The notes beneath the pieces were generated by a model. It had not been told where the DNA came from and did not search any database. It was given only the letters and a program-made list of their open reading frames with translations. Position numbers and translations under genes: made by a program. 64,000 nucleotides of DNA from Candidatus Gastranaerophilales bacterium. GTDB taxonomy: Bacteria > Cyanobacteriota > Vampirovibrionia > Gastranaerophilales > Gastranaerophilaceae. Positions 9,453 to 17,878 of this stretch are shown here, one piece after another. The number at the start of each line of letters is the position of its first letter. Position 1 is the first letter of the stretch. The stretch is taken from assembly GCA_944325605.1 (NCBI GenBank), contig CALVAX010000003.1, positions 62,001-126,000 on the forward strand, given 5' to 3'.

Positions 9453-10490
9453 TTGAATTTACGGGGGGGGGGGGCAACCTGTAATCAGGCTCCTTCAAGC
9501 GTTTTAGCCGAAAGTAATGGGATTATGCATCATCCTGAGCCGAAGGCGAAGGATCCAATTAAAAAGCAAGTAGCTTCTTCAGTCGCTTCGCTCCTTCAGA
9601 ATGACGTGCAGGGTGCGTGGGAATTTTTCGGGCTTTGTCCTCAGAATGACAAGGCAGCACAAGGAGATTCTTCGGGCTTTAGCCCTCAGAATGACATAAG
9701 AAAGGACGTCATCCTGAGCCAAAGGCGAAGGATCCACTTAAAACGTAATTGGATTTTTCACTCAGTTCAGAATGACAGGAAAAAATCCAAACACGCGGCC
9801 TTCACAATGGCGGAAGTCCTTATCACCATCGGAATAATCGGAGTTGTTGCTGCGATGACGCTGCCGGCGCTGATTAATAATGCACAGAATAAAGAACTTG
9901 AAGAAGGTTTAAAAAGATCATATTCTGTCCTCAGTCAGGCTCTTGATATGTATTACGCCCAAAATGAGGAAAGATTGACTAACGAAAATGTTGGAGCGTA
10001 TAAATTAAAGCCTACCTTAATGAAATATTTGAACGTTGTACAGGATTGCGGGAGCGGACATGCTGATGCTGATACTGCGTGCATTCCTAATACCGTCAAT
10101 GGAGTTTGGCATGATAATGGGCAGAAGATTAATAAATACAGAACCTATAACAATAAAGCTGATATTAATATGGATCTTTTTGATGACGGACAATTTGTTT
10201 TGAACGACGGCAGTTTAATTTTGATAGAAAACTCGGCATACGCTTCCAGATTGTTTATTTCAGTCGACTTGAACGGATTTCATAAAAATCCGAACAGGTT
10301 AGGGCAGGATTTGTTTATGTTTCAGATAGATGAAAAAGGAAAACTTCTTCCTATGGGTGCTGAAGGCACACAATATTACAGCAAAACAAACGAGTATTGC
10401 TCTCCGACTTCCACAAGTAATATGAACGGTGCTGGCTGCACTTACAGAGCACTCACTGACAAAACTTTTTTCAGAAGAAAAGGAAGATAA
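9453..10490 (+). CDS. pilin-like (prepilin N-methylation domain) protein with repeat-interrupted leader
   Basis: From about 9783 the frame encodes KKSKHAAFTMAEVLITIGIIG, a type IV prepilin leader junction (A|FTMAE, Glu at +5) with its hydrophobic helix. A globular domain follows with DLNGFHKNPNRLGQDLF and a C-terminal Cys pair (EYCSP...GAGCTY). The frame is open from a TTG at 9453, but residues 1-110 are mostly translated TGTCATCCTGAG-type repeats. The only ATG with a good ribosome site (AAGGAG, ATG at 9434) is out of frame and stops at 9484. Removing about 340 bp after ATGAAA would restore a normal leader, MKKSKHAAFTMAE. The gene is therefore interrupted; the G12 tract at 9463-9474 sets the frame. 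It may be off, phase-variable or a pseudogene. Confidence 0.6.
   Translation: MNLRGGGATCNQAPSSVLAESNGIMHHPEPKAKDPIKKQVASSVASLLQNDVQGAWEFFGLCPQNDKAAQGDSSGFSPQNDIRKDVILSQRRRIHLKRNWIFHSVQNDRKKSKHAAFTMAEVLITIGIIGVVAAMTLPALINNAQNKELEEGLKRSYSVLSQALDMYYAQNEERLTNENVGAYKLKPTLMKYLNVVQDCGSGHADADTACIPNTVNGVWHDNGQKINKYRTYNNKADINMDLFDDGQFVLNDGSLILIENSAYASRLFISVDLNGFHKNPNRLGQDLFMFQIDEKGKLLPMGAEGTQYYSKTNEYCSPTSTSNMNGAGCTYRALTDKTFFRRKGR
9463..9474 (+). repeat. G12 homopolymer tract after the start of the pilin-like gene
   Basis: Twelve consecutive G in an AT-rich region, 29 bases after the ATG at 9434. With 12 G the ATG-initiated frame ends after 16 codons; with 11 or 14 G it would enter the long pilin frame. 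Tracts of this kind are typical slipped-strand (phase variation) sites and are also prone to sequencing error. Confidence 0.8.
9528..9780. repeat. cluster of TGTCATYCTGAG-family repeats inside the pilin-like reading frame
   Basis: At least three paired units: CATCCTGAGCCGAAGG at about 9530 paired with CTTCAGAATGAC at 9593-9604; two TCGGGCTTT...CCTCAGAATGACA copies at about 9628-9651 and 9673-9697; and GTCATCCTGAGCC at 9709 paired with CAGTTCAGAATGACAGG at 9764-9779. They leave the frame open. The same units occur at 2226-2471, 10558-10998, 20618-20740 and 27308-27340. Confidence 0.75.
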
Positions 10491-10554: not shown

Positions 10555-10998
10555 AATGTCATCCTGAACGTAATCGAATGCGTCCTGGCAAACACCCGAT
10601 GAGATTCTTCGGGCTAAAGCCCTCAGAATGACATGAGATAGGCGACGGAATTCTTCAGACAAAGCCTTGCAAGAATGATAACAATGCCGCAATAGCGTAG
10701 TGAACAATAATTGCAGACAAGGCAAACGTCAAAGGCGGGTATTGTCCGAGCGCAGCGAGTTTACCCGCCAAAATGCCGAGTCTAGCAAATTATTAGCGAA
10801 CGCAGCGTGCGGCCGGTTTTGTGAAACTTTTTCCGAAAAAAGTTTCCCCGTCCGGAGGACAAAATAAAAAACGCCATGAAATCCGATAGAATTCTTCAGA
10901 CTTTCGTCCTCAGAAAGAGGTGGAAAAATAGCATGTCATCCTGAGCCATTCTGCCGAACAAAACGATTAAGTATCGTTTTGCGAGAGGGCGAAGGATC
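10555..10998. repeat. composite of TGTCATYCTGAG-family repeats, with a nested palindrome
   Basis: This describes the 524-bp gap 10491-11014, which holds no gene I can support. A complete unit runs from TGTCATCCTGA at 10557 to CCTCAGAATGACA at 10621-10633. Diverged pieces follow at 10645-10680 and 10885-10915. A last copy starts TGTCATCCTGAGCC at 10934 and ends GAAGGATCTCC near 11003; it is split by AAAACGAT-TAAGT-ATCGTTTT (10960-10980), a palindrome with 8-bp arms apparently inserted inside the repeat. Confidence 0.65.
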
Positions 10999-16776: not shown

Positions 16777-16819
16777 ATATCAATTTTAGCATAAAAAAGA
16801 TTGAGTAAAAATTCAAAAT

Positions 16820-17545
16820 TTACTTCTTATAATTCCACGGATAATCGTCGGAAATTTTCCATCCGTCAAGTATTATCAAAAGAGAACATCCATCGCCTGC
16901 ACTATAACCGAACTGATCTGTTGCATTAAGATTACACGTGCCATAATCTGCTGAAAGTAAATAGCTGCGGTTTTTATTTGTTTCTGAATTTTGTGACCAT
17001 TGTGAATTTTCCTCACTTCTATCTGCTCCGAGTGTAAATCCGTAAGTCTTTGTAATTGACATTCTGAAAATATCATGTCCAATAACGTTAGGTCCTGTTA
17101 ATCCGTTTGTATCAGCATAAATAATAATACTTGTCCCGTTGTCCATTGCAGATGTTCTTACGGCAACAAGCGTTCCGTTTGCAAGCGAAAATTTTGCATA
17201 TTCTGTTGTATTAAGAAAACCATCTTCACCACCCCACGTAGCTTTATTTAAAGACCTGAAATTCCAGACAGAATTATTGATTTTAAAGTTTTTAATATAT
17301 GGTGCCAGATAAATTTTTACAAATTCATCACTTGAAAGTGTGTAATCCCACGAATTTACAACCCCGTTATCAGTTTCGGAAATCTTGATTACTTCAGATA
17401 GTTTAGAATAAATCGTTTTTAATTTTTCTACCGTAACTTTTTTCTGATAATGTCCAATTAGTGCAGGAAGTGTCATTGCGATTACTACTCCGAGAATGCC
17501 AAGTGTAATCAAAACTTCAGCCATAGTAAATGCTTTATGCTTCAT
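16820..17545 (-). CDS. pilin-like protein (prepilin N-terminal cleavage/methylation domain)
   Basis: A 241-residue secreted or pilus-type protein. It starts MKHKAFTMAEVLITLGILG: short basic leader, A|FTMAE junction with Glu at +5, then a hydrophobic assembly helix. The rest is a globular domain ending with DTNGLTGPNVIGHDIF and a Cys pair (YGTCNL ... GDGCSLLI), both features shared with the pilin-like gene at 9453-10490. I chose the ATG at 17545, preceded by AAGGAAC; the upstream 60 codons of open frame are not plausible. It is read from a good promoter (17610-17638) divergent from a small HTH gene, with two palindromes in the shared region. Confidence 0.85.
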   Translation of the reverse strand: MKHKAFTMAEVLITLGILGVVIAMTLPALIGHYQKKVTVEKLKTIYSKLSEVIKISETDNGVVNSWDYTLSSDEFVKIYLAPYIKNFKINNSVWNFRSLNKATWGGEDGFLNTTEYAKFSLANGTLVAVRTSAMDNGTSIIIYADTNGLTGPNVIGHDIFRMSITKTYGFTLGADRSEENSQWSQNSETNKNRSYLLSADYGTCNLNATDQFGYSAGDGCSLLIILDGWKISDDYPWNYKK

Positions 17546-17590
17546 AAAAAGTTCCTTTCTTATGAAAAAATATCGAATATATAAATATAA

Positions 17591-17641
17591 TATTGATATA
17601 TTCAATAAAATATTACGTAAGTTGATATTGAAAGTCAATAT
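17591..17641. promoter_or_regulatory. paired operator-like palindromes in a divergent promoter region
   Basis: Two palindromes share TATTGA/TCAATA half-sites: TATTGA-TATAT-TCAATA at 17591-17607 and ATATTGA-AAG-TCAATAT at 17625-17641, centres about 34 bp apart. The first covers the predicted start point of the pilin-like gene; the second covers that promoter's -35 box and the spacer of the HTH gene's promoter. The arrangement suggests a repressor acting on both genes, most simply the HTH protein encoded here. Confidence 0.55.
17610..17638 (-). promoter_or_regulatory. sigma-70-type promoter of the pilin-like gene
   Basis: On the minus strand TTGACT (17638-17633), a 17-bp spacer and TAATAT (17615-17610) form a near-consensus promoter. 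The predicted start point, about 17603, gives a leader of roughly 57 nt before the ATG at 17545. Confidence 0.6.
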
Positions 17642-17649
17642 TTTATACT
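17622..17649 (+). promoter_or_regulatory. promoter of the small HTH gene, apparently leaderless
   Basis: TTGATA (17622-17627), a 16-bp spacer and TATACT (17644-17649). The expected start point falls at 17656-17657, that is at the ATG of the HTH gene, and no ribosome binding site precedes that ATG. Confidence 0.5.
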
Positions 17650-17656
17650 TTCTATT

Positions 17657-17878
17657 ATGAATATTACAGACTGGAATAACGACGAAATACTGCGGCTTGT
17701 TATGGCAAAAGGCCATGTTACTCAAAAAATTCTTCTTGAAATGCTTAAAAATAAATCAGGTGAAGAAATTCCGCAGAGTACTTTTTCGTGCAAGATTAAA
17801 CGCAACGGCCTGAAACTGGCGGAATTTCAGCAGATTTGCACTATTCTCGGCTATGAAATTATTCTCAAACGGAAATAA
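17657..17878 (+). CDS. small helix-turn-helix protein, putative transcription regulator
   Basis: A 73-residue protein with the layout of a minimal Cro/XRE-type DNA-binding domain: VTQKILLEML as the first HTH helix pair, IPQSTFSCKIKR as the recognition helix, and KLAEFQQICTILGYEI closing the domain, with a basic tail. It lacks any oligomerisation or ligand domain. It is divergent from the pilin-like gene at 16820-17545, and the 111-bp gap holds two TATTGA/TCAATA palindromes that are good candidates for its operators. No ribosome site is visible and the promoter suggests a leaderless mRNA. Assignment as a repressor is inference. Confidence 0.65.
   Translation: MNITDWNNDEILRLVMAKGHVTQKILLEMLKNKSGEEIPQSTFSCKIKRNGLKLAEFQQICTILGYEIILKRK

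Follow-up and report, generated by a model that had tools for sequence, protein, structure and literature searches.

The analysed region contains a small HTH gene that diverges from a type IV pilin-like gene, and we consider it probable, at roughly two chances in three, that the pair forms a private repressor switch, one per pilin, in which the pilin is carried as an exchangeable cassette. The evidence, which comes from sequence comparison, lies in the layout of the locus, the conservation of its operator, the non-random pairing of HTH and pilin genes, the group-specific palindromes, the leaderless-type starts of the HTH genes, and the cassette replacement of the pilins.

Organization of the HTH/pilin locus

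The window, i.e., the whole stretch of 64,000 nucleotides that was analysed, belongs to a 2.15-Mb genome in 30 contigs from a member of the Gastranaerophilales, non-photosynthetic gut relatives of cyanobacteria. Named relatives of the locus come from metagenome-derived genomes of Candidatus Gastranaerophilales/Melainabacteria. The gene order is rsgA, pilin gene (minus strand), 111 bp, HTH gene (plus strand), efp, accB, and accC. The features of the locus are as follows.

16820-17545, minus strand: type IV pilin-like gene, 241 aa, with prepilin motif and DUF6613; the body, from about codon 28 to the stop, is the exchanged segment
17551-17557, minus strand: pilin ribosome-binding site AAGGAAC, from the sequence
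17571-17587: site A, putative degenerate operator copy TATCGA-n5-TAAATA, from the symmetry score over 24 orthologs
17591-17607: site B (palindrome 1), putative operator TATTGA-n5-TCAATA (TATTGATATATTCAATA), over the predicted pilin transcription start, from ortholog conservation
17610-17615, minus strand: predicted pilin -10 box TAATAT, from a consensus scan; TAnTAT is kept in orthologs
17622-17627, plus strand: predicted HTH -35 box TTGATA, from the consensus scan and ortholog alignment
17625-17641: palindrome 2, TATTGAAAGTCAATA at 17626-17640 with one more pair, from the window sequence
17633-17638, minus strand: predicted pilin -35 box TTGACT, within the HTH promoter spacer, from the consensus scan and orthologs
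17644-17649, plus strand: predicted HTH -10 box TATACT, 7 nt before the ATG; TATA is invariant in orthologs
17657-17878, plus strand: lambda-repressor-like (Cro/C1-type) regulator, 73 aa, from the ORF, the AlphaFold2 model, and structure matches

The two genes diverge across the 111 bp, with predicted promoters that overlap and candidate operators between them. As consensus matches, these promoters scored 10/12 for the HTH gene (TTGATA-16-TATACT, plus strand) and 9/12 for the pilin gene (TTGACT-17-TAATAT, minus strand). The overlap of the pilin -35 box with the HTH promoter is kept in orthologs. A preliminary description of this DNA had listed the divergent genes, the 111-bp gap, the promoters, and both palindromes, and each of these elements was recovered in its place. 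Site A, the apparently leaderless HTH gene, the repetition of the arrangement across the genome, and the swapping of pilin bodies did not figure in that description.

The HTH protein and the pilin

The AlphaFold2 model of the window HTH protein has four helices (pLDDT 88.6). Its best structural matches are CI, HipB, and C proteins, with the N-terminal domain of TP901-1 CI as the top match (Z 6.8, rmsd 2.6, 65 aligned; Foldseek probability, 0.98). On the strength of the model and these matches the 73-aa protein is assigned a lambda-repressor-like fold, and with Z below 8 the assignment is one of fold only, in agreement with the earlier view of the protein as a minimal 73-residue Cro-like domain. 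The sole Pfam match was DUF6471, at 17.5 bits and below the cut-off of 26.8. The HTH subfamily lies below the Pfam cut-offs, with 4 of 31 members matching HTH_26 (best value, 1.6e-4). A PHROGs search gave just one weak, unannotated match, and a PDB sequence search gave no useful match. A reading of the locus as a defence system was rejected because there was no PADLOC match.

The divergent partner had been called pilin-like, and both profiles and model bear this out. The prepilin motif TIGR02532 (18.3 bits; cut-off, 16.3) and DUF6613 (29.3 bits; cut-off, 24.3) scored above their cut-offs, and N_methyl scored 20.9 bits against a cut-off of 21.2. The pilin model (pLDDT 83) has a long N-terminal helix (residues 8 to 60) followed by strands forming a sheet. 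The top matches of a fold search include the PAO1 type IV pilus, at a weak Z of 3.3, and Foldseek returned no convincing match to the pilin model. Twenty-three pilin homologs share the conserved C-terminal pattern C..I..DGW.I..DYPW.

Operator conservation in orthologs

The pattern TATTGA-n3..5-TCAATA occurs twice in the 64-kb window, at sites 35 bp apart, against an expectation of 0.02. The spacers are unequal, with 5 bp in palindrome 1 and 3 bp in palindrome 2, so one dimer would not fit both palindromes equally. The whole genome contains 7 sites, compared to 1 for a reversed-pattern control. The search of the genome that the preliminary description had proposed thus yielded five more exact sites, all within ORFs, and the pair at the locus represents the only promoter-type copies. 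Sites with one mismatch numbered 93 genome-wide against 44 for the control, which is not separable from chance, and TATTGA-n5-TCAATA was found upstream of no other listed pilin of the genome. On these grounds a genome-wide regulon of the window HTH protein was rejected.

The upstream regions of 24 loci with an orthologous HTH gene (66 to 95% identical to the window protein) and full upstream sequence were aligned and then anchored on site B. Site B was kept in all 24, with 5.6 of 6 symmetric pairs over a background of 2.27 (sd, 0.57), and its position was always -64 to -68 from the HTH ATG. Site A, whose offset from site B is exactly 20 bp, showed a mean of 4.0 of 6 symmetric pairs over the same background and is a perfect TATTGA-n5-TCAATA in three of the orthologs (L044, L046, and L059). 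The GTCA of the pilin -35 box is invariant in the 24 orthologs, with TTGACA in most relatives, and the pilin -10 box TAnTAT is conserved 17 bp from it. The HTH -10 box, TATA(C/A)T, lies 6 to 9 nt before the ATG in all 24. The left half-site of palindrome 2 was present in 1 of the 24, namely the window alone, and the alignment indicates that palindrome 2 is a window-specific extension of the conserved pilin -35 box. The proposal that palindrome 2 is a second operator copy, and with it autorepression through this palindrome, is not supported by this distribution. The conservation of palindrome 1 and of the HTH/pilin pair in relatives, which the same description had put forward as a check, was found for site B in 24/24 and for the divergent pilin in 21/24 orthologs.

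Leaderless-type starts of the HTH genes

The window HTH gene is without a ribosome-binding site, so its mRNA should begin at or beside the AUG; the distance of 7 nt between its -10 box and the ATG likewise predicts a leaderless mRNA. In the 18 HTH/pilin pairs of the same genome (see below), a -10-like hexamer is located 4 to 10 nt before the ATG of 14/18 HTH genes versus 0/18 pilins, and a ribosome-binding site precedes 3/18 HTH genes versus 16/18 pilins (Fisher p = 1.6e-6 for the contrast in start type over the 18 pairs). The HTH genes as a group therefore look leaderless. The lambda cI mRNA is likewise leaderless, starting at its AUG.

Pairing of HTH and pilin genes

Usable pilin-type genes number 43 in the window's own genome, and most of them are full length and have their own starts. 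A small HTH gene adjoins 18 of the 43, in all cases divergently and at a distance of 41 to 199 bp; the other 25 have no adjacent HTH gene, so the switch is not universal. The count of 18 pairs used an Xre profile built partly from the proteins that it then found, and because of this partial circularity the pairing statistics are carried by an independent count with Pfam HTH_3. By that count, 15 of 43 HTH genes have a pilin within 400 bp, versus 0.17 expected by random placement. All 15 are upstream of the pilin and in the opposite orientation, with 0 in other layouts. Beyond the 18 pairs, an HTH gene decayed by a stop codon (C2:136622) is located beside the pilin at C2:136452. Three pilin-type frames of this genome (G000), at C11:7001, C6:106232, and C1:91238, end after 26 to 43 residues, and some HTH/pilin pairs are thus decaying; the few very short pilin frames are isolated truncated genes.

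Four relatives have 29, 120, 134, and 64 pilin-type genes, and at least 10 of 30 sampled pilins in these genomes are paired with an HTH gene, all divergently. Of 292 genomes sampled from the phylum, 111 carry the HTH subfamily, with up to 20 genes per genome, and only two of the 111 lie outside the same family. A divergent pilin lies within 300 bp of 29/40 subfamily HTH genes sampled across the family, a sample that was drawn from stronger matches and is not strictly random. The window HTH type is patchy, being present in 31 of 288 family genomes. Its orthologs have a divergent pilin about 105 to 113 bp away in 21/24 cases, and the remaining three (L049, L054, and L061) have a surface-glycan partner behind the same operator, these partners being Stealth, CDP-glycerol glycerophosphotransferase, and glycosyltransferase 2. 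An HTH paralog (L002) has DUF1796 rather than a pilin as its partner. At four further loci (L292, L293, L299, and L294), small HTH genes that do not adjoin a pilin are divergent from a glycosyltransferase-like gene or from exported-looking genes with signal-peptide-like starts. Divergent HTH genes may thus accompany further kinds of surface gene as well.

Apparently private operators

Six other HTH groups each have their own conserved upstream region. Three of the six have clear palindromes at the same place that differ in sequence (AAATTATATTAATTATAATATAATTT, GAATATTCTTAATATATTAAGAATATTC, and AAACATGTATATTATACATGTTT), so the operators look private; the palindromes of the remaining three groups are less clear. 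In the window's own genome, shuffle-significant palindromes were detected in 7/18 paired versus 1/18 unpaired pilin upstream regions (Fisher p = 0.04), a palindrome being significant on its own in just 7 of the 18 pairs, and the significant palindromes of these regions all differ from one another. Each HTH protein apparently has a private operator.

Exchange of pilin bodies

Comparison of the window with the orthologous locus L039 gave protein identities of 95% for HTH, 97% for efp, and 28% for the pilin body. At the DNA level, identity is 77 to 88% in rsgA, 30 to 53% in the pilin body (16800 to 17460), and 83 to 100% across the segment that begins near pilin codon 28 and takes in the promoter, HTH, and efp. 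The window's pilin body shares 68% identity with the L042 pilin body, while the HTH proteins of these two loci share only 81%, and the pilin body of L039 is nearest to those of L044 and L046 (54 to 57%). These alignments indicate that the pilin body is swapped with sharp boundaries while the HTH gene, promoter, and flanks remain. L039 and L046 share 98% identity in rsgA and 99% in efp, compared with just 79% in HTH, and the HTH of L046 is 96% identical to that of L044, so the HTH gene was evidently replaced there too. Two more comparisons, L036/L037 and L023/L024, show a replaced pilin behind a kept HTH gene, and in L003/L021 the pilin has been lost. The whole HTH/pilin unit was found at several genomic sites. 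A record within this comparison, L041 (FR900479.1), carries the title Fusobacterium sp. CAG:439, yet it shares 94% identity in rsgA with a Gastranaerophilales genome (L043) and is probably misnamed.

Two repeats were observed near pilin starts. GTGCTACGCACGTAG (core GCTACG-CA-CGTAGC) has 27, 32, and 9 copies in three relatives and 2 copies in each of two others, and it is absent from the window's own genome (loci L262-L291, L195, L196, L201, L225, L229, and L257; genomes G248, G056, G082, G019, and G210). Of 36 copies inspected, 35 are in frame and located exactly 44 bp before the pilin FTLAEVLIT codons or about 60 or 120 bp more, with the copies farther out forming tandem 60-bp units. This element is a pilin-specific 20-codon repeat and possibly a recombination site for pilin bodies. 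In another pilin gene of the window (9453 to 10490), a dispersed repeat beginning ILSQRRRIHLKRNWIFHSVQNDRKK lies in frame directly before the prepilin motif. It occurs in the window at 9664-9705 and 10601-10642 and also precedes other pilins of the same genome (L080, L086-L089, L143, and L145).

Proposed mechanism and alternatives

In the proposed mechanism, a dimer of the HTH protein would bind site B (17591 to 17607), covering the pilin transcription start, and would probably also bind the weaker site A, 20 bp or two helical turns further on, and this binding would block pilin transcription. Relative to the predicted pilin start, site B extends from about -4 to +13 and site A from about +17 to +33. 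Since the sites lie over and beyond the start, one bound dimer, or two on one face of the DNA, should prevent the pilin from being transcribed. The HTH -35 and -10 boxes flank the pilin -35 box, so polymerases at the two promoters should exclude each other; both promoters would never be occupied together, and the locus would tend toward pilin-on or HTH-on. Repression at sites B and A combined with this exclusion predicts a two-state switch. The HTH mRNA would start at its AUG, as does that of lambda cI. With its own HTH protein and its own palindrome, each pilin would be switched separately, and the pilin body would be an exchangeable cassette, with relatives keeping the HTH gene, operator, and promoter and carrying a different pilin. 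Relative to the predicted HTH start, the centre of site B is near -58, a position that is compatible with no effect on the HTH gene or with its activation and that says nothing firm on HTH self-control.

Activation of the pilin gene by the HTH protein from site B or A seems unlikely. Small Cro/C1-type proteins can activate, as C proteins do on their own promoter via one of two operators (PMC4824078), but activators act upstream of the -35 box, whereas sites A and B cover the predicted pilin start and DNA downstream of it. The pilin promoter is also close to consensus by itself (TTGACA-17-TAnTAT in most relatives). The version of the preliminary description, an autorepressor acting via two equivalent palindromes, one per promoter, is slightly more improbable still. 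It was prompted by the identical half-sites of the two palindromes in the window, but palindrome 2 differs in its spacer and is unconserved, its left half-site being confined to 1 of 24 orthologs. What stands of the autoregulated switch on a surface appendage gene is the surface-gene switch, which fits the anatomy of the locus; autorepression via palindrome 2 does not, and autorepression by other means is possible.

Alternatively, the HTH protein might have no role in pilin regulation and be encoded by a small hitchhiking or mobile gene that comes to lie before pilins, with palindromes that serve the HTH gene alone. The patchy presence of this HTH type (31/288 family genomes) and its several genomic sites do indicate mobility or frequent loss, and the operators are also upstream of the HTH promoter. 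Against this reading, the pair is always divergent, and in the window's HTH group the operator covers the start of the pilin gene. The elements of the pilin promoter are conserved with the HTH gene while the pilin body changes, and partners that take the place of a pilin are surface genes too. We regard a bystander HTH gene as about as doubtful as activation, and we favor a private repressor acting on its own pilin.

Implications

That species exchange pilins but retain the switch suggests a toolkit for cell-surface variation. More tentatively, and with the odds somewhat against it, the private repressor switches could together constitute a surface-variation system, with dozens of pilin genes and some glycan genes each under a miniature lambda-like switch with a private operator, cassette-replaced bodies, and one of many on/off combinations displayed by each cell; the benefit might be evasion of host or phage. 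Gastranaerophilales are common, almost uncultured gut bacteria, with 29 to 134 pilin-type genes in the five genomes examined. A private switch per pilin, if true, would explain the control of this large pilin set and would offer a concrete route, open to testing, by which the surface could vary from cell to cell. If private switches hold, a single genome would also supply, in its many HTH/operator pairs, a natural collection of orthogonal repressors about 75 residues long with which to study the divergence of HTH specificity. Under partial literature coverage, no published account of the arrangement was found, either for Gastranaerophilales, Melainabacteria, or Vampirovibrionia or for divergent HTH/pilin pairs in general, which is weak evidence of novelty; the literature on termite-gut Melainabacteria says merely that they possess type IV pilus genes. 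Any novelty of the arrangement is thus provisional.

Comparison with known systems

The exchange of a pilin body behind a constant 5' part is also the basis of pilE/pilS antigenic variation in Neisseria, where silent partial copies within the genome supply a single expression locus. Unlike in Neisseria, dozens of mostly full-length pilins here have their own promoters and regulators; the exchange was seen between species, from sequence, and the scheme of a single expression locus with silent copies does not apply. The N-terminal domain of TP901-1 CI resembles the HTH model as its best structural match, but sequence identity is 15 to 19%, and CI has a further C-terminal part that the 73-aa protein does not.

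C proteins such as C.Csp231I, which has two CTAAG-n5-CTTAG operators and a leaderless mRNA (PMC4824078), are similar in being small single-domain HTH proteins with n5-spaced palindromic half-sites in two copies and a leaderless start, the latter predicted here. However, C genes are tied to restriction genes, whereas the partner here is a pilin and there is no restriction system, so the locus does not belong to this group. Lambda-type immunity regions are represented by PaaR2/YdaS of the Escherichia coli O157:H7 prophage CP-933P, with a 97-bp divergent region, a leaderless regulator, and bistable expression (PMC8630535). The likeness lies in divergent genes about 100 bp apart, operators between them, and a leaderless regulator (predicted here). 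The locus may therefore work like a lambda cI/cro immunity switch, but it is no member of that family. No second, opposing repressor gene (cro) was found at the locus, where the partner is the pilin; the partner in PaaR2/YdaS is a second, cro-like regulator, and here it is a structural surface gene. In further contrast to PaaR2/YdaS, the pilin arrangement is repeated many times per genome with different operators.
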